DNA from: Micromonospora tarapacensis
GTDB lineage: Bacteria > Actinomycetota > Actinomycetes > Mycobacteriales > Micromonosporaceae
NCBI RefSeq assembly: GCF_019697375.1
Contig: NZ_JAHCDI010000004.1
Location: 2,467,324 to 2,531,323, forward strand
DNA: 64,000 nucleotides
Reading direction: 5' to 3'
The notes below the pieces were generated by a model. The model worked only from the letters and a program-made list of their open reading frames with translations, had not been told where the DNA came from and made no database searches. Each line of letters begins with the position of its first letter. The stretch's first letter is position 1. This document shows, in pieces, positions 12,422 through 25,244 of the stretch. Made by a program: the position numbers and the translations under genes.

Positions 12422-13290
12422 CGGTCGCCGCTTGCCGCTGGAGCCGGGCGAGTCGCGGCGGTTGCCAGTGGCGGCACGCGGGGCGGTCCTCGGTCTGCCC
12501 CCGGAGCGGGAGCCGCCACCGGGTCGGCGAGCCGCCGACTGCCGGACCCGCTCGACGCCGGGCCGGCGGCACCGCCAGGCGACCAGGCCGGCGACCGCGG
12601 CGATGGCCGCTGCCACACCGGTCCAGGCCAGCGGGCCGGCGCCGGCCGTGTCGGCCGGGGACGGCGCAGCGACCGCCGCCGACGGGACCGGTGACACCGG
12701 CGGTGCCGCCGGGGCACCTGACGCCGGCTGCTGCCCGGAAGTCCCGTGCTGCTCGGCGGCGGCCAGCAGGGCCGGCTCCGGCTGACCGGTCGGGGCTGCC
12801 AGCCCGGCGGCGCCGCCGTCGCCTTCCCCGTGTAGCGGAAACTCACCGTGCCACGAACCGGGTCGCCGTCCAAGGCCACCGACAGGTAGCTCACCGAGTA
12901 CTGGCCGGTGGCGGGCAGCTGCGCGAGCGTCACCAGCGCGGGAAAGCCGGTCGTGTACTCGCGCGGCTCGAAGACCCCGTCCACCAGGAAGTACTCCCGT
13001 ACCGGCTGGTCCAGCGGCTTGGGCGTGCCGTGTGTCCAGCCGTTGTCGACGCGCCCGCCGCCGGGCGCGGTGACGGTGAAGTAGGCGTCGTCGCGGACCT
13101 TCTCGGTGAAGTACAGCTCGACCGTCGCCACCGGCTTCTCGACGGTGGCGCCTTCGGCCGGTGTGGACATCGCCAGGGTGCCGTGCGCCGCGGCGGGCGA
13201 GGGAGGCCAGAGGAGGGCGACGGCGGCGGTGAGGACCAGCGCGAGCAGACCCGAGGCCAGGCGGCCGGCAGGCCGAGGGGGACGACGCAT
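12418..13290 (-). pseudogene. copC: CopC copper-resistance protein, frame-disrupted
   Basis: Residues 1-35 are a signal peptide ending in AAA, after which the mature protein begins HGTLAMSTPAEGATV, with His directly after the cleavage site as in copper-binding CopC proteins. The CopC beta-sandwich runs to about residue 155 (VELYFTEKVRDD, VSFRYTGKATAA). After that the frame turns into an Arg/Pro/Ser-rich tail, while the next frame (-1) carries a typical CopC ending: GLAAPTGQPEPALLAAAEQ, a linker, and a membrane anchor AWTGVAAAIAAVAGLVAW (around 12590-12650). One base appears to be missing near 12805-12835. The original frame then ends in TGA at 12418, overlapping the next gene's GTG. The start at 13290 has AGGA 8 bases upstream. 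Confidence 0.75.
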
Positions 13291-13330
13291 CCGATCATCC
13301 TCGCGACGTTGTGGCTTTATTCAATGGCTC

Positions 13331-13352
13331 GCCATCTTTTTGTTCAGATGGC
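13331..13352. promoter_or_regulatory. Inverted repeat upstream of copC
   Basis: gccatct (13331-13337) and agatggc (13346-13352) form a 7-bp inverted repeat with an 8-base, T-rich spacer in an unusually AT-rich patch, 41-62 bases before the copC start. It may be an operator, or the terminator of the GH43 gene upstream on the same strand; the position between the two genes allows either. Confidence 0.35.
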
Positions 13353-13486
13353 AAAAGTTCTGCCTTCCGCGGCCGAAAACCGGAGCGCTGGTCCGGCCAC
13401 CTCGTCAGCCGCCGGTGACTGGCCGTACACGGTCTCCAGGACGATGCCCACCGGGGCGTCGTGGTCGTTGCGGGCCTGCACCGCCA

Positions 13487-14950
13487 CTACACGGTGCCAC
13501 CGACACACGGCGCCTGGACGCTGGCCGTGACGGGCGGTTCGGCGCCGGCACCGGCCTCGAAGGCCCAGGTGTCGAGCTCGAAGAGGTCGACACCGTCGGG
13601 CCCGGCGTAGGTGAAGTAGACGTCGTGCACGTCGGCGACGCCGTCGAGTTCGGCGGTCGACTCCGTCCAGTCGCCGTTGTCGATGTCACTCACCACCAGG
13701 TTCGGTGCCGAGCCGCCGAACTGCGCGGAGCCGCCGTCGATCTTTCTCGTCGCGATGCCCGTGCTCCAGCCGAAGGTCTCCGCCTCGAACACCCGGAACG
13801 GGTCGAAGTCGCGGACCTGTGCCACGCCGGCGTAGGTGCCGACCACCTGCTGGATCGTGCCGTCCGGGTTGAAGGCCAGTTCCTCGATGTGCGGGCTGCG
13901 GTACCCCTGGGTGTTGTCCCCGGTGATGCGCTTGTTCAGCGTCGGGGCGTGGTGGGTGAAGTAGTACCTGCCCTCGAACTCGAACACCGACTGGTGGTTG
14001 TTGCCGCCGGTGCCGGCGCCGAAGAACTGCGACTGGTTCGGGAACAGCACGCCCGCGTAGGTCTCCTTCGGCCACGTCATCGGGTCGTCGGAGACCATGT
14101 AGCCGATCTGGCCGCCGCCGGGGTAGCCGGGCAGCGGGGTCTGGTTGCCGCCGAAGTCGTTCCCGCCGAAGTGCGCGGAGTAGGAGAGGTAGTACCGACC
14201 CTCGCGCTTGAACACGTGGGCCGCCTCGAAGGCCACCGGGGCGTCCACGACGGCCGCCGTCCCCTCGGTCGACACCATGTCGTCGCCGAGCTCGATCGCC
14301 CGGATGTTCTTCGGGTTGTTGAAGCGCTCGGCCGCCGGCCTGCTCGTCGAGGCGGGACCGCCACCGAAGTAGAGGTACGGCTCGCCGTCGTCGTCCACGA
14401 ACGGCGCGGGGTCGAACTTCCACGCGACCGCCTCGGCACCGGGAGTACGGTCGCCGATCAGCGTGCTGGTGCGCTCGCTGGTCCACGGACCGAGCGGCGA
14501 CCCACCGGTGATGACGTTGCTCGATCCACCGCCGTTGGCGTAGTAGAGGAAGAACCTCTCCTCGCCGTCCACCACCTTGCGGGCCATGCCGGGCGCCCAG
14601 GAGTTGTTGGTGAACGGTGCCACGCCGTTCGGCCCGGCGACCTGGATCTCGCCGTGGTCCGTCCAGTTCACCAGGTCCTCGGAGGAGATCACCGTGATCT
14701 GGTTGATGTCGCCGTAGTTGATGCCCGGCGAGATGCCGGTGACCGGGTCGGGCGCGAAGCCCTGGGTGTCATTGGTCAGGTACATGTACACCCGGCCGTC
14801 GTGCGCGAAGCCGAAGCCGTCGGCACCGAACTTGTGCCCGATCAACGGGTTGTGCTCGCCGGGCAGCTTGCCGACCACCTCGATCGTCTTCGACGGCGCC
14901 GCCGACGGCACGGCACCGACCACCGACACGTCGTCGCGCTTGAAGTCCAT
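13487..14950 (-). CDS. Glycoside hydrolase family 43 with CBM6-like domain, C-terminus cut by a frame break
   Basis: A 487-residue five-bladed beta-propeller hydrolase of arabinan/xylan side chains. The N-terminal propeller begins NPLIGHKFGADGFGFAHDGRVYMYLTND (residues 33-60, split here as NPLIGHKFGAD and FAHDGRVYMY), the usual Asp base region of GH43, with the SWAPGMA motif near residue 120 and an EAAHVFKREGRYYL motif carrying the general acid Glu. A CBM6-like domain (FEAETFGWSTG and on) ends near residue 470. The start has GGAGG 8 bases upstream, but no signal peptide precedes the catalytic domain, which is odd for this family. Past the TAG stop, another frame continues as VAVQARNDHDAPV, see findings. 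Confidence 0.82.
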   Translation of the reverse strand: MDFKRDDVSVVGAVPSAAPSKTIEVVGKLPGEHNPLIGHKFGADGFGFAHDGRVYMYLTNDTQGFAPDPVTGISPGINYGDINQITVISSEDLVNWTDHGEIQVAGPNGVAPFTNNSWAPGMARKVVDGEERFFLYYANGGGSSNVITGGSPLGPWTSERTSTLIGDRTPGAEAVAWKFDPAPFVDDDGEPYLYFGGGPASTSRPAAERFNNPKNIRAIELGDDMVSTEGTAAVVDAPVAFEAAHVFKREGRYYLSYSAHFGGNDFGGNQTPLPGYPGGGQIGYMVSDDPMTWPKETYAGVLFPNQSQFFGAGTGGNNHQSVFEFEGRYYFTHHAPTLNKRITGDNTQGYRSPHIEELAFNPDGTIQQVVGTYAGVAQVRDFDPFRVFEAETFGWSTGIATRKIDGGSAQFGGSAPNLVVSDIDNGDWTESTAELDGVADVHDVYFTYAGPDGVDLFELDTWAFEAGAGAEPPVTASVQAPCVGGTV

Positions 14951-15089: not shown

Positions 15090-18000
15090 TCACGGAAAGT
15101 CGTCGGGAGTGGTACCCGGCAGCGTCGCCAGCAGTTGCCCGGCCAGCCCTCGTACCGTCGCGTCGTCCTCCTGGCGGGCCAGCCGGACGAGAATCGGTCG
15201 GGTCCGCGAGTCGCCACCGTAGTGGCGGGCCAACGCGAGCAGCGCCGTCCGGCGGATCTCCCAGTCCTCGTCGTCCACCAGTCGCATCAGCAGCTCCCGT
15301 ACCTCCGCCCGGCCGGCCAGGGTGGCCGCGAGCTGCTCCACGGCCCGACGCCGGACCTCCAGGTCCGGATCGTCGCGAACCAGCCCGACCAGCAGCACCC
15401 GCACCTCCGGGTCGCCGGCGAAGTGCTCGCCGAGCGCGGCGGCGATCCGGGCCCGGATCGCCGGGTCCTGATCGGCCAACCGGCGCATCAGCCGCAGTGT
15501 GACCGCCATGGACGTCGACGTCCGCCCGGTCAGACACCGCACCGCCGCGTCGAAGGCCGCCGGGTCGGTGTCCGACTCGATGCACTCCAACAGCACGTCC
15601 GTCACCACGTCGGGACTCCCGTACGCGCAGAGGGTCTGCACGGCGGCCAGCCGGATGCCGGCGTAGCTGTCCCGGCGGGCCCGGCGCGACAGCGTCTCCA
15701 CCAGTGGGCCGGAGCCGCCGTCTCGGGCCAGCGCCTGCGCCGCCGCGCGCAGCACGTTCGGATCCGGATCGCGGCGGACCTGCTCGGCCAGGCACTCCCC
15801 CACCTGCACGTCCAGCGGGTCGGCGAGGCAGGCCAGACTGCGGGTGACCCGCAGCCGGACGATCGGGTCCCGCTCCCGGGATGCCCGGCTGATGAGCAGG
15901 TCGCGGGTGGCATGACCGAGCAGCGGTCGGCCGGTGAGCAGGTCGACCGCGGCGAGCCGGACACCGGCGGTCGGGTCCTGGCGGGCGCGCTCCAGCAGCA
16001 ACTCGCCGGTGCGGTGATCCGGATACGCCTCGGCCAGCGCACGCACCGCGGCCAGCCGGACCGTGGCGTCCCCGTCGACGCGCGCCGCGCGCGCCGCCAC
16101 CGCCCATCCGGCGTCGTCCATGCGGTACCGGTCGGTCAGCGCGGTCACCGCCGCGGCCCGCACCGAGGCGTCCTCGTCCTGCTCGACCCGGTCCACCAGC
16201 CGGTCCAGGCAACGCCCGTGCGAATCGCTCACCAGCGCCAGCCGCTGCACGGCGACCGCACGGACCAGTGCGGAGGTGTCCGAGCCGGCCAGTTTGAGCA
16301 GCAGTTCGGTGCCCTCCGCGAGCGGCTGCCCGGGGAGCAGCTCGGTCACCAGGCAGCGCCGTACCTCGTCGTTGGTGTCGCCGGTTATCCGCGAGAGCGC
16401 ACGGCCACGGGCCGCCTCGGCGTGCTCGGGTAGCGCCAGGAGGCGGCCCAGCGCGCACTGCACCACCCCCGGGTCGCTGTCGGTGGCCAACAGCCGCTGC
16501 AGGCCCTCAGGGACACCCGACAGGTCGGCGCAGCGCTCGGCCAGCACCGCCACGGCCGCCCGCCGTACGCCGGTGTCCCGGTCCTCGGTGGCTCGCGTCA
16601 ACAGCAGCCGGCGGACGTCCTCGGTCAGGTCGGCCCGCGCACCGAGGGACTGCACGGCGAGGGCGCGCACCGCCGGGTCGGGTGAGCCGGAAAGTTCGGG
16701 TAGCACGCCGATGAGGTCGGGGCCGGTGCCGTAGTTGGCGACCAGCGCACGTACCGCTGCCTGCCGCACCGCGGTCGAACCCTCCGCCCCCGCTTGGGCG
16801 AGCAACAGATCGTGGCAGTATCGGCGGCCGTGGCTGGTGGCGTCCAACCGGCCGGCCGCCTCGCCCAGGCCGGCGACCAGCGCGATCCGCGCCTGCCGCT
16901 CGCGGCCCTGCCCCAGTTCCCGGACCAGCAACTCCTCCACCTGCTCCTCGGCGGTGGACAGCACCGCGGCGGCCCGGGTGGCGAACGTGGAGCCGGTGCG
17001 CCAGCTGGTGCGTACCCCGCGGCGGCGGTACCAGTGCAGAAAGGCGGCCCGGCCGGGCCACTGCGATCCGAGCGCCCGGATCGAGGAGAACAACTCCTGC
17101 TCGGTGACCTCGACGAGGTTCGGGTCGTCGGTGGAGATGCCGTGCTCGATCAGCAGTACGACCTGGCGCAACACCGCCTCACCGGCATTCGTCAGCCCGG
17201 CCGGTTGGGGCGCCTCCGCGACGCACTGCGCGGCCAGTACGAGGCTCCACGGCGGGCTGGTCAGGCTCAGCGGCGGCCAGGGTTGGTTGACCTCGGTGGC
17301 GAGCAGGACGACCAGATCGTCGGCGGCGTCGGCGGGCAGTGCGCCGGCGACCAGCCGCAGCACCTCCCGCCAGGATGGGTCGGCCCAGTGCTCGCGGAAC
17401 AGCGCACGCAACTGGTCGAGCCCCCAGGCGTCCGGATCATGCTCGAACCTGTCCACGATCTCCTCGGCGCAGAAGAATTCCAGGAAGGTGCGATGCACGA
17501 ACCCGAACAGCCGCAGGCCGTACCGTTCCAGGAGAAAACTCCGTTGACGCAATCTGTCGATCATCGAGTAGGCCATGGCATGCGCCCGCTCGTTCTCGAA
17601 ACCGTAGAACTCCACCAGGTGATCCCGGAAGATGCGCGACAGATCATCCGATTCAATGTAATTTCCGGCCGGGCCGGACTCCCGACACTGCATCCAGAAC
17701 GCCAGGTGGCGCAGGAGCCGCAGTTTCGCCTGCGGATCCAGCGGCGGCACGTCGCCGTGGCTTTCCCGCAGCTGCTTGGTCACGTCCCATTCGGAGATCA
17801 GCACGTCGGTGACGTGCGCATAGAGCCGGCGCCGATTGCGTGGCAACGGGCGATCCCGGCCGACGATCGCCATGAGCATCAGCAGCAACGGGTTTCCGGC
17901 GATCTCGTGCATGGCACGGGAACTGCGCACCACGTCGAGGATCTGGCGCCGCTGCCGGTCCGCCTCGGCCGACGGGGTCGGCATCACGTAGCGGTACCAG

Positions 18001-19307
18001 TTGCCGAGAAACCGTTCGATCCGCTCGTCGTCGAGATCCTCCAGGGTGAAGTGGTCGAAGCCGGCGTTGGCGAAGGTGTGCCGCAGGTAGCCGGCCGCCC
18101 GCGAGGTGACCACCGTGCGCACCCCCGGGTACTCGTTGGCGAAGGTGGCGATCTGCGCGGCCATCTCCTCCCGCTGTGCCGGGTCGAACACCTCGTCCAG
18201 GCCGTCGAAGAGGAACAACGCCTGGCCGCCCTGGCGCAGGTACGCCTCCAGCACGTCCCGGTCGATCCCGGCGAGCCCCTGCTGGTGCCGGTGCCCGACG
18301 TAGTCCAGCAGCCCGTCGCACCGACCGTCACCGCGATGCGCGGCGTAGGAGCGAAGCTCGACCAGGACGGGAAGGTACCGGTCCAGTGCCGCCAGCCGCG
18401 GCTCGTCGCAGACCCCGGCCAACGTCAGCGCGAGGTATCGTGCGGTCGCCGACTTGCCGGAGCCGGGGTCGCCGAGCAGCACGATCGCCCGCCTGGCCGG
18501 GTCGCAGACCACGTCGAACAGCGCCGACGCCTCCTTGGCCGCGTACTCCTCCCACAGCCGCTCCACCTCGCGCGGGTCCACCACACCGGGCAGCCCGCCG
18601 GCGTCACCGTCCGGACTGGAACCCGCCCAGCGCCACCAGGCCAGCGGCATCTCGGGCCGGGCGTCCTCGTGGACCCGCGGTTCGACGAACACGTTGGACA
18701 GGCCGACCGTCAGGTACCCGATGGTGGGCCGTGGCGAGACCGCGTCCAACGGTACGGCCTGGTACCTCAGTCGCAGCTGCTTGTGGTACTGGCTGCGTAC
18801 CGCCTCCGGCAGGTGGGTGCCCGGGTCGGCGGGCTCGCGCGCCGGGGACCGGCCGCTCCGCACGTCGGCCAGCGCCGCCGTGACCTTGGCCGCCAGGTCG
18901 TCCACGCTGGAGAAGAAGGCGCACAGGTGGCGCTCCTTCAGCTCCTGCCGCAACGCGACCACCTGCTGCCAGTCGCCGTTGCGGTCGACCATGTCCACCG
19001 GCCACGGCGTGTCGTCGGCGAGCAGGAAGATCAGACAGGGCTTACCGGCCGCCAGCGCCTCGCGGTACTCCAGCTCGGTGATGGAGGACTCCTGGCCGGG
19101 CGGCCGGTAGCCGTATCGCCAGGCGAAGACCCCCACATAGAGATCGCACCGGCGGACGTCCGCCAGGCAGCGTTCCAGGGGCGGGCGGACGTCGGCGCCG
19201 TAGGCCTCCATGGCGACGTCCTCGATCTCCAGGCGCCGCGCCGCGGCGTGCACGGCCGCGCGATATTCGAGCAGGTCCTTTTGGGTGGCCGAAATGTAGA
19301 CCTTCAT
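15090..19307 (-). CDS. DUF4062-NACHT-HEAT STAND ATPase
   Basis: A 1405-residue multidomain signal-transducing ATPase, probably cytoplasmic. Residues 1-95 are a DUF4062 domain (KVYISATQKDLLEYR, CDLYVGVFAWRYG, ITELEYREA), related to TIR-like/nucleotide-processing folds found in front of NACHT modules. A NACHT NTPase follows with Walker A GDPGSGKS (279-286), Walker B LFLFDGLDE (364-372) and sensor-like TSRAAGY. Winged-helix/helical segments include EIAGNPLLL and VHRTFLEFFCAEE. From about residue 850 to the end, many HEAT-like repeats of about 32 residues (VRxxAVxAL-type) form a probable ligand-sensing solenoid. The start at 19307 has GGAG 10 bases upstream. It is divergent from the SCO2521-family gene. 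The architecture is that of NLR-like defence or signalling proteins. Confidence 0.92.
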   Translation of the reverse strand: MKVYISATQKDLLEYRAAVHAAARRLEIEDVAMEAYGADVRPPLERCLADVRRCDLYVGVFAWRYGYRPPGQESSITELEYREALAAGKPCLIFLLADDTPWPVDMVDRNGDWQQVVALRQELKERHLCAFFSSVDDLAAKVTAALADVRSGRSPAREPADPGTHLPEAVRSQYHKQLRLRYQAVPLDAVSPRPTIGYLTVGLSNVFVEPRVHEDARPEMPLAWWRWAGSSPDGDAGGLPGVVDPREVERLWEEYAAKEASALFDVVCDPARRAIVLLGDPGSGKSATARYLALTLAGVCDEPRLAALDRYLPVLVELRSYAAHRGDGRCDGLLDYVGHRHQQGLAGIDRDVLEAYLRQGGQALFLFDGLDEVFDPAQREEMAAQIATFANEYPGVRTVVTSRAAGYLRHTFANAGFDHFTLEDLDDERIERFLGNWYRYVMPTPSAEADRQRRQILDVVRSSRAMHEIAGNPLLLMLMAIVGRDRPLPRNRRRLYAHVTDVLISEWDVTKQLRESHGDVPPLDPQAKLRLLRHLAFWMQCRESGPAGNYIESDDLSRIFRDHLVEFYGFENERAHAMAYSMIDRLRQRSFLLERYGLRLFGFVHRTFLEFFCAEEIVDRFEHDPDAWGLDQLRALFREHWADPSWREVLRLVAGALPADAADDLVVLLATEVNQPWPPLSLTSPPWSLVLAAQCVAEAPQPAGLTNAGEAVLRQVVLLIEHGISTDDPNLVEVTEQELFSSIRALGSQWPGRAAFLHWYRRRGVRTSWRTGSTFATRAAAVLSTAEEQVEELLVRELGQGRERQARIALVAGLGEAAGRLDATSHGRRYCHDLLLAQAGAEGSTAVRQAAVRALVANYGTGPDLIGVLPELSGSPDPAVRALAVQSLGARADLTEDVRRLLLTRATEDRDTGVRRAAVAVLAERCADLSGVPEGLQRLLATDSDPGVVQCALGRLLALPEHAEAARGRALSRITGDTNDEVRRCLVTELLPGQPLAEGTELLLKLAGSDTSALVRAVAVQRLALVSDSHGRCLDRLVDRVEQDEDASVRAAAVTALTDRYRMDDAGWAVAARAARVDGDATVRLAAVRALAEAYPDHRTGELLLERARQDPTAGVRLAAVDLLTGRPLLGHATRDLLISRASRERDPIVRLRVTRSLACLADPLDVQVGECLAEQVRRDPDPNVLRAAAQALARDGGSGPLVETLSRRARRDSYAGIRLAAVQTLCAYGSPDVVTDVLLECIESDTDPAAFDAAVRCLTGRTSTSMAVTLRLMRRLADQDPAIRARIAAALGEHFAGDPEVRVLLVGLVRDDPDLEVRRRAVEQLAATLAGRAEVRELLMRLVDDEDWEIRRTALLALARHYGGDSRTRPILVRLARQEDDATVRGLAGQLLATLPGTTPDDFP

Positions 19308-19523
19308 GGACGGCAAACTCCAGGGGTGGCTGGCGACCGCATTCTTCAAAATATCAGCCGCCTTCACATCCATCCGCCCTCGTGAACGTCCGATGTCCCG
19401 GAGCCGCATTTCTGCCCCCCGCACCCGGTGGGCCTATGATGGCCGCAGGACGACGTCGGGCCCCGTCACCGACCGCAGGCCCGTGCCTGCCGGGCGTCCC
19501 GGTGCTGCCGATGCGGAGGAACC
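19308..19523. promoter_or_regulatory. Divergent promoter region between the NACHT gene and the SCO2521-family gene
   Basis: A 216-base gap separates two genes read away from each other. It includes an AT-richer patch (ttcttcaaaatatcagc, about 19342-19358), which is plausible promoter sequence. No clear palindrome was seen. Confidence 0.4.
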
Positions 19524-20480
19524 ATGCTCACGGTGGGCGAGGTGCACACCAGCCTGCTACAGCACAGCACGGCCCTGGCACAGGAACAGAGCTCCGAGGT
19601 GCTCAGCCTGGTGGAGGGCGAGGCCGTCCTCACCTCGCGACGCCCGTCGCTCTACGCGGTGTCGCCCGACGTCCGCACCGGGGTGGACTGCTGGCTGCCC
19701 AGCGCACGAAAGCGCCAACTGCGCGGAGTGGGCGCGGTGGTCACCCGGGGCGTCATCACGGGCGGCCGGATCGTCCAGGCGTCCTCGATCATCCAGGTCG
19801 TCGCCGGGGAGCGGCGCCGACCGTGGTCGCACTACCTGGCCAACTCCGGGATGCTGGAGACCGTCGGCAAGCTCGACGCCGAGGATCTGGCCACGGGTTT
19901 CCTCTACGGCAACGCCGCCGACGTACTCAACCTGGACGCGATCACCGGCCGGGTGCTCGACAGCGTGCAGATGTCCGACCTGCTGGACCGCCGCCCGCCG
20001 CTGCGCGCGGCGCGCACCCGGCTGCGGTGGACCGCGCAGGTCGACCAGACAGCGGACCACGCCGGCACCGCGGTGGTCGCCGTGGACTCCCCGACGCTGC
20101 GCACCGTCCGGCTCACGGTCGGCCCGCAGGACGTGCCGGCCGCGGTCGCCGGCCTCTGTGAGGATCTCGCCCTGCACGACTGGCTGCTCACCATGCTGTC
20201 CGCCCTGGTGGAGGCCGCGGTGACCCGGACCGGCTCGACCCAGGAGCACATCGAGCGGCTGCGCCCGGTGCTGGAGCACCTGTTGCACCTCTGGCTGCCC
20301 GGTGCACGGGTCGATCCGCGGCTGCGGCCGATCTGGGACCGGCTGGAGCAGGTGCCCGGTTTCAGCCGGCAGTGGCAGTCCTCGGTCAACTGGATCCGGG
20401 ACCAGATCACCGTGGGCAACATGGCCCTGCTCCGCGACCTGGCCGGCCGGGTGGCGGCCGACCAGCCGTGCCTGCGCTGA
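19524..20480 (+). CDS. SCO2521 family protein
   Basis: A 318-residue soluble protein matching the actinobacterial family known by its Streptomyces coelicolor member SCO2521. It is recognised from overall sequence (MLTVGEVHTSLLQHS at the start, RRPSLYAVSPDVRTGVDCWLP, then an ALHDWLLTMLSALVE helix) and from its place beside SCO2522-2525 homologues. No catalytic motif is visible. The ATG at 19524 has GGAGG 4-5 bases upstream (gcggaggaacc). It converges on the SCO2522-family gene with only 6 bases between stops, so it is transcribed opposite to the other four members. The function is unknown in all organisms I know of. Confidence 0.85.
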   Translation: MLTVGEVHTSLLQHSTALAQEQSSEVLSLVEGEAVLTSRRPSLYAVSPDVRTGVDCWLPSARKRQLRGVGAVVTRGVITGGRIVQASSIIQVVAGERRRPWSHYLANSGMLETVGKLDAEDLATGFLYGNAADVLNLDAITGRVLDSVQMSDLLDRRPPLRAARTRLRWTAQVDQTADHAGTAVVAVDSPTLRTVRLTVGPQDVPAAVAGLCEDLALHDWLLTMLSALVEAAVTRTGSTQEHIERLRPVLEHLLHLWLPGARVDPRLRPIWDRLEQVPGFSRQWQSSVNWIRDQITVGNMALLRDLAGRVAADQPCLR

Positions 20481-20486
20481 GCGTCC

Positions 20487-21455
20487 TCACTCGCCGATGA
20501 ACACGTAGCTCAGCCGGTCGACCAGTTCGTCGGGCAACTCCACGCCCTCGCTCCCGGCCCGCTTGGCGACCTGTCGCGCGACCGCCGGCGGCACCGCCAC
20601 CTGGCCGAGGATGGTTCGCACGGCCAGCTCGACCGGGAGGTACCGGGTGTCCATCAGGGTCACCGTGCGGTACCCACAGAACGGCGCGGCGTCCGGATTC
20701 AGCTGGACGATCGCCGGCAACCGGTCCCAGTCGTCGGGCAGCGGCTCGTCGGGCGACAGCCGGTAGGGTTGGGCGACCGTCTGCCCCCGGTGTCGCAGCA
20801 CCCCGAGCCGCGTCATCTGCCAGACCGAGGCGAGCAACGCGCAGGCCCACACCCGACGCTCCGGCTCGTCGGACCACAACTCGATGTCGACGAAGATGGA
20901 GTGCGGGGCGTCGCCGGACTGCAACGGCGGGGACCACGGCACCGGCAGGGTCATCGCCGGCGCGTCGGCATGACCCGGGGAGCGCTTGCCGTTGGACAAC
21001 CAGCCCGACTCGCTCAGCGGCGGACGGCTCCCGTTGGTGTGCCGGGGCGGCTCCACGACCAACGTGTCGACCACCAGCCGGGCCAGCTCGACATCGTCGT
21101 GCCGGGCGAAGCTGGACTCCCGGGCCACGTAGTCCAACACCAGGCCCTGCTCCGTCGCGGCCTGCTGCACCTGCGGGATGATCTCGCGCGGAGTGGCGAA
21201 CCGGTGGAAGTAGTCGTCCACCAGGAAGCAGGTGCTGATCCGGGGTTGCCGCTGCGGGCGCAACCCTCGACGGGCCAGCGCCGGTATCACCTGGGCCCAG
21301 TCCGCGATCCGCTCGAACTTGCGCCGCAGATCCCGGCACCCGTCGCCGAAATCCTCCGCGTACACGTGCCCCAACTCCACCGACAGGTGCGAGTACGCCA
21401 CGCTCTCCGTTCGACGCACCGCGGCTGCCTCCTGGAACCTGACATCCACGCTCAT
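20487..21455 (-). CDS. SCO2522 family protein
   Basis: A 322-residue soluble protein of the SCO2522 family. Conserved parts include YSHLSVELGHVYAEDF near the N-terminus, ISTCFLVDDYFHRFATP (about residues 70-86), an SIFVDIELWSDEPERRVWACALLAS region and a C-terminal NPDAAPFCGYRTVTLMDTRYLPVE stretch (two parts: CGYRTVTLMDTRY and LPVELAVRT). FVDDYF recalls metal or nucleotide contacts but is not a known motif. It is translationally coupled to the upstream P-loop gene: that gene's TGA and this ATG share one base (TGATG at 21453-21457). It is the last gene of the minus-strand operon. Confidence 0.85.
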   Translation of the reverse strand: MSVDVRFQEAAAVRRTESVAYSHLSVELGHVYAEDFGDGCRDLRRKFERIADWAQVIPALARRGLRPQRQPRISTCFLVDDYFHRFATPREIIPQVQQAATEQGLVLDYVARESSFARHDDVELARLVVDTLVVEPPRHTNGSRPPLSESGWLSNGKRSPGHADAPAMTLPVPWSPPLQSGDAPHSIFVDIELWSDEPERRVWACALLASVWQMTRLGVLRHRGQTVAQPYRLSPDEPLPDDWDRLPAIVQLNPDAAPFCGYRTVTLMDTRYLPVELAVRTILGQVAVPPAVARQVAKRAGSEGVELPDELVDRLSYVFIGE

Positions 21456-22384
21456 CACACGGTCTCCCATGCCGTCTCGTCGAATATCTTGTCGGTCAGG
21501 TCCACGAAGGCGTCGACCGTCCTGGCGTTGGCGATCTTGGTCTGCACGTCGTGGTCCGAGATCAGCTGCTCGCGCCATTGCAGCATCGGGTCCAGCGGCA
21601 CCGTGCCGAGCAGCGTGGTGCGCCCGGTGCCCTTCTTCCGGGCCAGCTCCGACAGATCCGCGTCACACTTGCGCAGGAATGCCTGCTGCGCCAGATCGAG
21701 GTGGCCGACCTCCGGGCCGCGTGAGTCGATCACCGCCGTCCGGACGAACCGGAGCGACTCCCGCAGCCGGTCCGGTTCGTGGCCGTATTCCTTCCCCATG
21801 GCCAGGATCCCACCGGCCTCGAAGGCCAGGTCCGCGGCCGCCGTCACGTGTTGCGGGGTCCACCGGTGGAAGACCAGCCAGCGAACGGTCACCTTACGCA
21901 GGGTCGGGGTGGCGGTGGCCGCCAGGGCGATCTGGCTGGCGTAGGAACGACCGGCGCTGAGGTCCACCAGGGTCAGGTCGAACTCCTCCTCCAGCCGGAG
22001 GAAGAGTTCCGCACAGCGCCGGCCGATGTCGTTGGTGAAGCCGAATTCGCTGCCGTTGCGCTGCCCGGGCAGCAGCACCAGCGAGCCGGACCGGGTGGGC
22101 CGCTGGCGCAGGCTGACCTGCTCCGAGGTGGCCCAGACGTCCAACTGTTCCGGCGACGGAATCTCACCGCGCAGGTATCGGTGCAGACCGCCACCGTTCG
22201 GCCCGGCGCCCTCGACGCCGTTGGTCGCCTGCGGGACGTGGAAGGTGATGCCGGCTGTCGGCGAACCGAAGTCGTAGTCCAGATAGCAGGTGGGGCGGCC
22301 GGCCAGCGCACTGCGGTAGGCCATGTTCGCCGCGGTCACCGACCGCCCGGTGCCGCCCTTGTGCGAGGTGACGAAGACCAGCAT
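21455..22384 (-). CDS. SCO2523 family variant P-loop ATPase
   Basis: A 309-residue SIMIBI-class NTPase resembling MinD/ParA. The deviant Walker A is SHKGGTGRS (residues 7-15): the signature Lys9 is present, but the usual P-loop lysine is Arg14, hence the family label variant P-loop. CYLDYDFGSPTAG is the switch I-like Asp region, and LTLVDLSAGRSYASQ takes the place of the ParA DxxAG Walker B segment. Such ATPases dimerise on ATP and organise or deliver partner proteins; the partner here is presumably one of its cassette neighbours. Its start directly abuts the SCO2524-family stop (TGAATG) and its stop overlaps the SCO2522-family start, so the three are one translational unit. Confidence 0.88.
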   Translation of the reverse strand: MLVFVTSHKGGTGRSVTAANMAYRSALAGRPTCYLDYDFGSPTAGITFHVPQATNGVEGAGPNGGGLHRYLRGEIPSPEQLDVWATSEQVSLRQRPTRSGSLVLLPGQRNGSEFGFTNDIGRRCAELFLRLEEEFDLTLVDLSAGRSYASQIALAATATPTLRKVTVRWLVFHRWTPQHVTAAADLAFEAGGILAMGKEYGHEPDRLRESLRFVRTAVIDSRGPEVGHLDLAQQAFLRKCDADLSELARKKGTGRTTLLGTVPLDPMLQWREQLISDHDVQTKIANARTVDAFVDLTDKIFDETAWETV

Positions 22385-24226
22385 TCAGATCCCCTCGCTG
22401 GCCTTCTGCTGGCCGGTGGTGACGTCGTTGAGCAGCAGCAGCAGGGTGCCGGCCAGGGCGGCGGCCGTGCCCGGGCGGTCGTCCACCAGCGACTGTGCCT
22501 GGCGCAGGCTGGCGCGGATGCTACGCATGCTGCGCTGCATCGCCTCACCGGCGAACGTGCCGCGCATCAACTCCCGGTCGAAGAGGTACTCGGCTTCGTC
22601 GATGAGATCCTGCGCGTACGCGGCGAGTCTGCCGGCCCGGGGGAACGGGCGCTCCCAGAGCAGCTGACCGGCGGTGACCAGCGCGTGCACCACCCGCTCG
22701 GTGAGGTACCAGGAGGGCGCCACCGGCGGCGGCGCGAGCCCGGGGAAGGCGCCGCCGGCGTGATCCCACAGTCCTGCGTACCGGCTGTCCGGGATGCGAC
22801 GGAGCAGCAGGTGCTCCCAGACCTCGTCGGCCAGCTCCAGCAGCTCGCTGCGCCGCCGGGCATTGTTCAGCAGGCCGGCGACGGTGGTGGCCCGCAGCAG
22901 CAGGACCGTGGAGAACTCGTTCACGTTCCACGTCATGATCGGCTTCGACGTGGCGTCGTTGAGCGTCACCTGCTTGCCCGGTGCGTGCACGACCAACGCC
23001 GACTCGTCGGGCGAGGCCCGCCGGGTGATCCGTGCCCGCTGCGCCAGCTCCACCAGGACGCTGGCGATCCGGCCGAGCTCCTCGTCGCCGCCCCGCCCGC
23101 CGGCGATCAGGCCCTTCACCGCCAGCGAGGTGGCCTGGAGGGTGTAGTAGTCGGTCCGGTCGCCGTCGGTGGTCCGCCAGGGAATGTCCTCGATGGGCCA
23201 GCGCCGCCGGTTGGCGAAGGTCGCCACCGTGGCCCAGTACGTCCGGGTCAGCTCCCAGCGCAGTTGCAGGGCCCGGGACAGCCGCTGCTGCTCCTCGTTG
23301 AGCAGACCGAGCAGGCGGGTGCGCTCGGAGTTCAGGTCGTCGATGGCGTCCATCGCGATGACCGTGAAGTAGAGGTAGGGCGCGTTCTCCGCCGAGCCCA
23401 CACGCTGCGGGCCGATCGGCTCGGTGGTCGGGACCTCCTCGGCGTCGGCGATCGTCCCCCACGACCACCCGCACTCGAACAGCATCTCGCTGTTGTCCAG
23501 GTCCTCCGTCACCCGACCGGAGCCGATGACGACGCTGCGCAGGCTGGCCATCGTGTCCCGCAGCTGCTCGCGTAGTGCGGCCACCACCTCCCGGCGCGGC
23601 AGCTCGTCCTGGTTGACCATGTCGCAGAGTCGGACGCCGAACTCGTCGGTCGAGGCGAAGACGGAGGTGCTGAAGCTGCGCAGCAGGCCGACCATGGCCG
23701 CGGTGAGCCGCACGCTGGCCATCGTCTCCAGCACGTCGAGCTGGGACAGCAGGTCGCGCCGCTGGGTGGAGCCGCGGTAGATCTTGACGAAACCGATCGT
23801 CGCCAGGGTGAGTGTGACGGACACCGCGAACGAGTCGACGATGTCCAGGGAACGCTGCTCCTCGGTGAGATCCGGACCGCCGTCCACCGGGGTGAGATAG
23901 GTGCCACCGGCGAAGATCGGTGCACCGGCCTCGTCGGTGTACCGGGTGAAGTAGTCGGACATCAGGCCGACCAGGCGGCGCGGGATCTCGATCGCGCCAC
24001 CCATGGCGCCGAGCGCCTCGATGACCTCCTCGTCGATGCCGTCCGGGTCGTCCAGCGACAGCATCGGAATCTTGGTCGCCGGGAGCAGCAGGGTCAACAG
24101 TTGCTCGGCGTCGCTGATGGAATTCGTCGCGCTCCGGCCGCCCCAGTGCCATTCGCCGTTCTGCCAGCAACTGCGCACCGTGGCCCGCCAGATGTCGAGG
24201 ATCTCCTGGCGCGGCTGTATCCGCAT
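22385..24226 (-). CDS. SCO2524 family protein
   Basis: A 613-residue largely helical soluble protein of the SCO2524 family. The N-terminus RIQPRQEILDIWRATVRSCW and WGGRSATNSISDAEQLLTLL is characteristic. A hydrophobic segment (VSVTLTLATIGFVKIYRG, about residues 150-168) could be a membrane or core helix. A YFTVIAMDAIDDLN segment is near residue 290, and PDESALVVHAPGKQVTL-type beta sequence near residue 420. Two further helical blocks follow. No enzyme motif is recognised; the size and helical content suit a scaffold or an isoprenoid-synthase-like fold, but this is conjecture. The start at 24226 is favoured by the family N-terminus; no strong ribosome site is visible. Confidence 0.85.
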   Translation of the reverse strand: MRIQPRQEILDIWRATVRSCWQNGEWHWGGRSATNSISDAEQLLTLLLPATKIPMLSLDDPDGIDEEVIEALGAMGGAIEIPRRLVGLMSDYFTRYTDEAGAPIFAGGTYLTPVDGGPDLTEEQRSLDIVDSFAVSVTLTLATIGFVKIYRGSTQRRDLLSQLDVLETMASVRLTAAMVGLLRSFSTSVFASTDEFGVRLCDMVNQDELPRREVVAALREQLRDTMASLRSVVIGSGRVTEDLDNSEMLFECGWSWGTIADAEEVPTTEPIGPQRVGSAENAPYLYFTVIAMDAIDDLNSERTRLLGLLNEEQQRLSRALQLRWELTRTYWATVATFANRRRWPIEDIPWRTTDGDRTDYYTLQATSLAVKGLIAGGRGGDEELGRIASVLVELAQRARITRRASPDESALVVHAPGKQVTLNDATSKPIMTWNVNEFSTVLLLRATTVAGLLNNARRRSELLELADEVWEHLLLRRIPDSRYAGLWDHAGGAFPGLAPPPVAPSWYLTERVVHALVTAGQLLWERPFPRAGRLAAYAQDLIDEAEYLFDRELMRGTFAGEAMQRSMRSIRASLRQAQSLVDDRPGTAAALAGTLLLLLNDVTTGQQKASEGI

Positions 24227-24449
24227 GGTCCACCGCCGTCTACTGTCGTCGTCGAGCTGCTCAAGTCGTCGAAACGGAACTGCCGGTGTTGCCTGGCACA
24301 CGATGATCCACGGTGACGTGCGCCCTCATCGTATCCCTGTCGGGGCTTCGCCTGAACGTCCGCGTGGACCTGTGTTGCCGGAGAACCGGGCACCGAGCGA
24401 CGCGGCACCATTCCTGGTCGTGGCCCGGTGAACGGTTCCGGACAGCGCG

Positions 24450-25244
24450 TCAGCCCCGGCTGCGGCCGGTGACCAGCAGCATGCCCAGGTAACCGTCGCG
24501 CAGCGACGGAGTGGGCCGCACCTCGTGCAGGTCCACGTCGTACGCGCCGGCCGCGATGCTCGTCAACACCTCCGCCCGTTGCAGGGCCACGGCCGGGAAC
24601 CAGTGCTGGCCGACGCGGTAACCGTGCGAGCCGAGCATGAACGCCGCGGCAAAGGGCGAGCTGGGCCGCAGCGCTCCGAGGAACCGGCCGATGGCGTGCT
24701 CGGACTCCGTTCGGTCACCCGAGATCGAGCACGCCACGAAGAACATCGTGCCCGCACCCCAGGCGTGCCTGGGCAGGTCGAAGACGCTGAGTTGCGACAC
24801 GCGGCCCACCCGCGCCAGGCGATGCCGCGGATCGGCGAGCGTGGCGTAGGCCGGATGCTCGGCACACACCTGCCAGTACGCGTCCCAGCAGGCGTCGTAG
24901 CTCTCGATCTGGGTGCGCAGCCAGCCGACATTGGCCGTGGACCATTCGCACAGTTCCATACTTCGCGCGAATGGCAGAAGGGACAAAGCCGGGTAGAGGT
25001 TTGCGCCCGACCCCACGTCGACACAGTGCGCGCCGGAAACACTCGCACCACCGAAAAAGTCCCTGATCCGACAGAGAATTTCGCGATCGTCCTCACGCAG
25101 CACCGAGTAGTTGTGCTGGACGTATGCCCAGGGGTCGAAGCCGTCCCACTCGACCTCGGAATTGGCCGGCCTCTCGGCATCGACTCGTGACGGCGGGGTC
25201 GGTGGCCCGCTACAACCTGAGCCGGCCGCCGGAATCAATGTCAT
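24450..25244 (-). CDS. SCO2525 family SAM-dependent methyltransferase
   Basis: A 264-residue methyltransferase related to the NNMT/PNMT/TEMT group. The start of the domain, WDGFDPWAYVQHNY (about residues 33-46), is like the PNMT-family opening, and motif I is CVDVGSGANLYPAL (residues 74-87). MELCEWSTANVGWLRTQI is the acidic-loop region, and LPRHAWGAGTMFFVACSIS follows with FVAC in the post-II position. The substrate is unknown; small-amine or protein N-methylation would fit the fold. It is read 223 bases upstream of the SCO2524-family gene on the same strand. The ATG at 25244 has GGAGG 7 bases upstream. Confidence 0.88.
   Translation of the reverse strand: MTLIPAAGSGCSGPPTPPSRVDAERPANSEVEWDGFDPWAYVQHNYSVLREDDREILCRIRDFFGGASVSGAHCVDVGSGANLYPALSLLPFARSMELCEWSTANVGWLRTQIESYDACWDAYWQVCAEHPAYATLADPRHRLARVGRVSQLSVFDLPRHAWGAGTMFFVACSISGDRTESEHAIGRFLGALRPSSPFAAAFMLGSHGYRVGQHWFPAVALQRAEVLTSIAAGAYDVDLHEVRPTPSLRDGYLGMLLVTGRSRG

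Follow-up and report, generated by a model that had tools for sequence, protein, structure and literature searches.

Within the 64,000-nucleotide stretch of Micromonospora tarapacensis DNA analysed here (the window), a gene for a large STAND protein composed of DUF4062, NACHT and HEAT parts lies beside SCO2521-SCO2525, a five-gene actinobacterial cassette, raising the question of whether the two form one unit and what the NACHT protein would do in it. A preliminary description of the locus had proposed both the gene identities and the association. The identities hold, with profile matches above the cut-offs for the NACHT gene and for all five SCO2521-2525 NCBIfam equivalogs, which form a single cluster (Table 1). 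The association holds as well: in this lineage the NACHT gene is part of the cassette, and it appears that the NADase-like arm of a co-inherited unit has displaced the transmembrane (TM) DUF6879 partner of the cassette.

We surveyed the co-occurrence of the two elements at increasing taxonomic depth. Within the genus (160 genomes), SCO2524 is present in 35 genomes, and in 32 of these DUF4062 lies within about 6 kb. The exceptions are two genomes with divergent cassettes that are 44-54% identical (G333 and G369) and G372, in which the cassette is seen only as a broken SCO2524 frame in the fetched stretch. Some DUF4062 gene occurs in 10 of the 125 genus genomes lacking the cassette; in the two compared (G209 and G349), only about one tenth of the window protein could be aligned. 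Across 300 genomes of the family, SCO2524 occurs in 154, and outside the genus DUF4062 lies within 10 kb of the cassette in 30 of 131 genomes from eight genera. This count, matched by hand, is a lower bound, as extra cassette copies are not all listed and five DUF4062-bearing genomes whose cassette position is unlisted (G767, G822, G846, G891 and G895) are counted as unlinked. The linked share varies by genus, from 2/2 (g209), 6/6 (g216) and 7/7 (g230) to 11/51 (g227). In an even sample of 298 genomes of the order, DUF4062 is present in 48 and SCO2523 exceeds its cut-off in 29; DUF4062 lies a few kb away in all 11 cassette genomes of the genus and beside the cassette in none of the 18 others, 7 of which belong to the same family. 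Among 394 genomes of the class, 37 contain SCO2524, and no NACHT relative was found at the 20 fetched of the 34 class-level cassettes outside the order. Approached from the other side, NACHT-profile relatives matching at least 1200 residues have the cassette in 37 of 43 named loci (80 loci of 114 were kept in the named-relative set), the linked ones coming from Dactylosporangium, Asanoa, Plantactinospora, Actinoplanes/Paractinoplanes and Micromonospora; relatives whose fetched stretch shows no cassette come from archaea as well as from other bacteria (L140, L142-L144 and L150). Linkage is thus far above chance, and a chance association is rejected by these counts. The source genome has a single DUF4062 match. 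Six genomes of genus g216 (G779, G811, G829, G843, G854 and G861) have 8-15 matches each, the cassette-linked one included, mostly in frames of about 850-1000 residues.

The NACHT gene and the cassette have also been inherited together. After removal of 21 duplicates from a raw count of 70 NACHT-positive loci, the distinct set comprised 49 linked and 51 unlinked cassettes (n = 100). In the cassette tree all 49 linked cassettes form one clade with a support of 1.0 and no unlinked cassette inside; a smaller tree of 68 cassettes, built without the window and without ten more genus loci that lack a named twin, likewise places 37 of 37 linked cassettes in one clade. Distances between NACHT proteins follow those between SCO2521, SCO2523 and SCO2524 proteins (r 0.988-0.992, 43 loci), and none of the 29 strong NACHT splits conflicts with any of the 18 strong SCO2524 splits. 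This mirror-tree comparison covered 43 of the 49 loci, omitting the window and loci outside the table; five loci (L033, L057, L098, L146 and L148) were dropped from it and from the NACHT tree, two for broken NACHT frames, two for frames mis-started in extraction and one for an incomplete contig. Three cassette-less proteins fall inside the linked clade of the NACHT tree (support 0.918). Two layouts are found, 2524>2523>2522> <2521 NACHT> (layout A) and <2521 NACHT> <2522 <2523 <2524 (layout B), which implies at least one rearrangement inside the linked clade, or two should a node supported at 0.58 be correct. In both layouts the NACHT gene adjoins and diverges from SCO2521, except where a flavin adenine dinucleotide (FAD) oxidase gene intervenes. 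Among 31 loci of one genus, we count 11 distinct flanks on the NACHT side and 18 on the opposite side, as judged by DNA matches of at least 400 nt, so that old shared flanks may be split. The persistence of the unit through changes of layout and flanks is more telling than the distance correlations. Open reading frames (ORFs) were called by a simple composition script, which may mis-start or miss genes. The ratio of non-synonymous to synonymous substitution is 0.15-0.24 for NACHT and 0.10-0.29 for the core genes in five comparisons, indicating purifying selection.

In cassettes without NACHT, SCO2521 usually adjoins a different gene, here called X, whose product carries, after one or two hydrophobic segments, DUF6879 (above the cut-off in one, at it in one and below it in one of three X proteins scanned) and which, judged by gene order only, may be SCO2520. 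X is present in 39 of the 51 distinct unlinked loci versus none of the 49 linked loci. Genome-wide searches found full-length X in none of 20 linked genomes of the genus, with weak partial matches in nine, and in all four unlinked control genomes. Since all linked cassettes belong to one clade, the replacement of X by NACHT was likely a single event. A trace of its course may be left by the FAD oxidase gene (PF01266), which occurs in 21 unlinked loci, divergent from SCO2521 in 19, and also in eight linked loci, of which five are arranged 2521< Y> NACHT>, where Y is the oxidase; this order suggests that NACHT arrived next to the oxidase and that X was lost afterwards. Most unlinked family loci fetched carry the oxidase, and an FAD-dependent D-amino-acid/glycine-oxidase-like gene accompanies 20 of 26 fetched NACHT-free family cassettes (L183-L202 and L042). 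At three loci lacking both X and NACHT (L047, L048 and L049, about 12440-13496), a homologous gene of 274-288 residues, with hydrophobic segments in the two checked, adjoins SCO2521 and is another possible occupant of this slot. The divergent cassette of G333 (L051, 3-8738) lacks X and DUF4062 and adjoins two other STAND-like proteins: directly beside it a WD40-repeat protein that matches antiphage NACHT models weakly, and next to that a protein with SAV_2336-N, NA-iREase3 and NACHT domains.

The window protein itself follows the NLR-like plan of STAND/NACHT proteins in the domain scan, with an N-terminal effector, a NACHT domain with Walker A and B motifs, and a C-terminal repeat sensor, the HEAT part extending up to residue 1433. 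It is 1444 residues long from the first GTG and 1405 from an ATG at 19307, the latter in agreement with the preliminary description, which was also right that both Walker motifs, A (GDPGSGKS) and B (here FDGLDE), are intact. Orthologous frames in linked loci are mostly 1404-1519 residues long. All 49 linked loci have Walker B, whereas 47 have Walker A, which is missing from the other two because the NACHT frames are broken there. The second Glu of the DUF4062 motif TELEY is conserved in all 49 (45 TELEY, 3 THLEY and 1 TEAEY); from motif position, rather than an alignment with KpSwz, this residue, Glu119, would be the equivalent of E97 of KpSwz. According to the portion of a 2026 preprint available to us (PMC13174449), DUF4062 is a TIR-like NADase that acts as an antiphage executioner in bacteria, and in human TEP1 an active DUF4062 lies ahead of the NACHT domain. 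The same portion reports no activity for three further human DUF4062-NACHT proteins, so that NADase activity of the window protein is not assured.

The gene arrangement points to a tightly coupled core. SCO2523 and SCO2522 share one base at a TGATG junction and SCO2524 abuts SCO2523 (TGA|ATG), so the three genes are probably co-translated; the overlap proposed earlier is therefore real as tight coupling, with no long overlap. The longest SCO2522 ORF spans 20487-21578 on the minus strand, and translation likely starts at its residue 42. The divergence of NACHT from the cassette, also proposed earlier, applies to SCO2521 only, as SCO2522-2525 lie on the NACHT strand, and the 99-bp gap between the two divergent genes is presumed to hold a putative two-way promoter. 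Among the encoded proteins, SCO2521 gave no sequence match in the PDB. MinD/ParA ATPases have the deviant Walker A signature KGGxGK[ST]. SCO2523, which matches its family profile as a variant P-loop protein, has KGGTGRS instead, and this K-to-R change, invariant in 16 of 16 aligned sequences, suggests that the MinD-like protein may depart from the usual type of ATPase. The SCO2522 model appears to resemble the class I aminoacyl-tRNA synthetase catalytic fold, with a best Foldseek E of only 0.032. The signature of that class is HIGH; SCO2522 has ELGH, without the first His, at positions 68-71 of the ORF in the window. Among 24 members, no convincing Pfam match was found and no synthetase family appeared among the weak hits, and hhalign against 6 proteins from an ArgRS search and 19 from a CysRS search gave probabilities of at most 1.3% with shallow profiles; proof of a synthetase by sequence thus failed. 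The SCO2524 model is an (alpha/alpha)6-toroid, a fold preferred over a weak YacP sequence match (0.006), which was set aside. SCO2525 matches PF01234 (NNMT/PNMT/TEMT; 37.7 bits versus 25, 1.7e-9) and PNMT (1.8e-4).

We read the locus, with belief and doubt in equal measure, as a two-part control system in which the core takes in or relays a signal and the NACHT protein executes the output by depleting nicotinamide adenine dinucleotide (NAD+). An old actinobacterial core, SCO2521-2524, often joined by the SCO2525 methyltransferase, would take in or process the signal, and an exchangeable protein encoded beside the core would provide the output. In most unlinked cassettes examined, this output would be the TM-anchored protein X. 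In one Micromonosporaceae lineage, where X is gone and the DUF4062-NACHT-HEAT protein stands in its place, the latter would serve as the equivalent output, probably oligomerising in response to a biological trigger relayed by the core, and would act through NAD+ loss. Phage defence by the unit is plausible. The link between cassette and predicted NADase, together with the missing membrane partner, provides a concrete and testable hypothesis for the function of the core.

Several observations weigh against this reading. Outside the genus, 101 of the 131 family genomes were not seen linked. The pattern that the preliminary description had regarded as unfavourable, a constant cassette beside a varying NACHT gene, is accordingly half true, the cassette being much wider; the other half is that the TM-DUF6879 protein is the usual partner where NACHT is lacking. 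Neither X nor NACHT is present in 12 of the 51 unlinked loci, X-like paralogues (32-40%) lie elsewhere in 5 of 38 linked genomes (5 of the 18 outside the genus), and the NACHT frame is broken in 2 of the 49 linked loci (L033/G185 and L057/G389). The replacement was probably a single evolutionary event, so that the large counts are not independent, and shared descent raises the NACHT/cassette distance correlations. In the accessible part of a study of the HupS regulon (PMC11472566), the SCO2521-2526 operon of Streptomyces has a developmental link, not one to defence. The surroundings do not speak for defence either. PADLOC on eight window proteins gave no fitting model (best 0.002). On 124 flank ORFs from 44 linked loci it gave 12 member-family matches at 1e-5 in nine families, with no control set; the set took at most two ORFs per side, omitted the window as well as ORFs above 650 residues, touching a locus end or matching the unit, and yielded matches so scattered and sparse that the idea of a defence island was not upheld.

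A broader version of the two-part reading, possible but advanced here only tentatively, is that SCO2521-2524 form the constant core of a general actinobacterial plug-in regulatory or immune system whose outputs are exchanged between lineages, perhaps a membrane DUF6879 protein in most, an NAD-destroying NLR-like protein here and other STAND proteins elsewhere (G333/L051). If so, the core, with its synthetase-like fold, variant MinD and (alpha/alpha)6 toroid, would be an undescribed signal-transducing machine.

The NACHT protein could instead be a guard: SCO2521-2525 would be a housekeeping or developmental module (for growth, sporulation or small-molecule metabolism) attacked by phages or rivals, and its disturbance, watched by the NACHT protein, would lead to NAD+ loss. 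We consider this rather unlikely. The wider spread of the cassette, with SCO2524 in 37/394 class and 154/300 family genomes, fits such an arrangement, co-inheritance is as compatible with a guard as with a relay, and the part of PMC11472566 at hand says that S. coelicolor needs SCO2525 to grow normally; the absence of X from all 49 NACHT-linked loci is left unexplained by it.

Two further alternatives are both improbable. In one, the cassette would hold a self-toxic NACHT NADase off in the manner of an antitoxin or immunity protein, as tight linkage and the head-to-head arrangement with SCO2521 would allow, and as would G372 (L053), where a lone SCO2524 frame with a stop is found with a NACHT protein that has gained a caspase and an HATPase region. 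The cassette-less relatives in archaea and other bacteria, and L124 and L132, which lie inside the linked clade without a cassette, count against it, as does the fact that STAND proteins are usually self-inhibited. In the other, no less doubtful, the cassette would make or modify a small signal molecule of nucleotide or amino-acyl type, to be read by the HEAT or NACHT part, a neighbouring TrkA-RyR gene then reading or clearing ADP-ribose. The synthetase-like fold, the toroid and the methyltransferase prompt this proposal; the marginal Foldseek score, the failed Pfam and shallow ArgRS/CysRS comparisons and the ELGH in place of HxGH oppose it, and a fold by itself is no proof of activity. It would embellish the two-part system rather than exclude it. 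Finally, an inherited neighbourhood without functional meaning, for which the single clade speaks because one insertion could persist by descent, is a weak and very improbable explanation, as the unit stayed intact through at least one layout change and the 11 and 18 flank variants, and its presence is patchy (35/160 genomes) and mostly all-or-none.

The unit resembles several known systems in part. With Swarozyc it shares the effector domain PF13271 with its conserved Glu, NAD+ loss being the predicted output here; the Swarozyc protein, as described in the preprint text available, joins DUF4062 to an auxiliary winged-helix domain with which it binds the portal of the phage (PMC13174449). In the window, by contrast, five further genes go with the DUF4062 protein, and Pfam places NACHT and HEAT parts after DUF4062, for which reason we do not file the unit as Swarozyc. 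Bacterial NACHT/STAND antiphage proteins (the EruA and HyoA models) likewise combine an N-terminal effector, a NACHT ATPase and a repeat sensor, although the EruA model NF058535 gives only 33 bits against a cut-off of 1000. To our knowledge, no multi-gene cassette is part of these families or of the TEP1/NWD1 family. According to the same preprint excerpt (PMC13174449), DUF4062 and NACHT are neighbours in human TEP1 and NWD1 too, and the unit thus offers a bacterial protein of this architecture with a conserved multi-gene partner. The cassette of Streptomyces and other Actinobacteria (NCBIfam NF040564-NF040568) comprises the same five families, usually with the TM-DUF6879 partner, in whose stead the NACHT gene stands here. 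VMAP/FxSxx-type conflict systems share an inactive-looking MinD/ParA-like domain, STAND ATPases and death-type effectors, and variant domains of the MinD/ParA type are found in conflict systems of Actinobacteria, according to the text seen of PMC7159879. Unlike in those systems, no MoxR/vWA or radical-SAM peptide gene is present among the window genes scanned, which cover part of the window, and a radical-SAM/FxS peptide reading was rejected on the same scan. In agreement with the preliminary description, the papers found by searching the open-licence PMC literature gave no account of the union of NACHT and cassette. Those papers also gave no biochemistry of SCO2521-2525, the sole phenotype seen in them being the SCO2525 growth requirement in Streptomyces.

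Table 1 Positions of the genes of the unit and of features of the NACHT protein in the window.
Feature	Position	Strand	Evidence
DUF4062-NACHT-HEAT STAND protein	15090..19424	-	Pfam DUF4062, NACHT and HEAT_2 above cut-off
HEAT-repeat solenoid, presumed sensor end	15117..16800 (boundaries approximate)	-	HEAT_2, seven stretches, 8e-47
NACHT domain, residues 312-476	17997..18491	-	PF05729, 1.4e-10, 41.7 bits vs 26.7
Walker A GDPGSGKS	18450-18473	-	Sequence
DUF4062 domain, residues 41-123, predicted TIR-like NADase	19056..19304	-	PF13271, 8e-21, 74.4 bits vs 24.7
Candidate catalytic Glu E119 in TELEY	19068-19070	-	Column kept in 49/49 linked loci
Intergenic region between divergent NACHT and SCO2521 starts	19425..19523	.	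99 bp, coordinates
SCO2521 family protein	19524..20480	+	NF040565, SCO2521_fam, 364 bits vs 150
SCO2522 family protein	20487..21455	-	SCO2522_fam, 453 bits vs 200; start at ATG of TGATG junction
SCO2523 family MinD/ParA-like protein	21455..22384	-	NF040564, SCO2523_fam, 426 bits vs 200
SCO2524 family protein	22385..24301	-	SCO2524_fam, 788 bits vs 300
SCO2525 family S-adenosylmethionine-dependent methyltransferase, NNMT/PNMT-like	24450..25244	-	NF040568, SCO2525_fam, 299 bits vs 240

The scanned window neighbours of the unit are ordinary (GH43, MobA-like, Sua5 and DUF1275). No tRNA was found in the window, and a 485-residue protein with a serine-resolvase N-terminal domain (1368-2825) lies about 12 kb from the unit with nothing to tie it there, so that a tRNA or mobile-element anchor is not supported. 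At other linked loci, a TrkA_N-RyR gene flanks 15 of the 44 scanned; in 12, all from Micromonospora, its neighbour is NACHT, and in L137-L139 it is SCO2521. It comes with a small homologous partner of about 170-205 residues (L031, 16363-18646; L058, 3354-5748; L137, 5351-7776), and in L058 the pair is found with a DUF4062 protein that is unrelated and has no cassette. According to the available section of PMC13232231, RyR (R12) proteins of phages bind cyclic ADP-ribose immune signals or cleave them; RyR, TrkA and DUF4062 are not mentioned in PMC9503650. Two of the cassette-less proteins inside the linked NACHT clade, L115 and L132, begin with caspase and HATPase regions. In Micromonospora sp. 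RP3T (L054, 5607-11429; also L115), a single chain of 1941 residues joins caspase, HATPase_c_4, DUF4062, NACHT and HEAT parts, the cassette being seen only as a broken SCO2524 frame on another contig.

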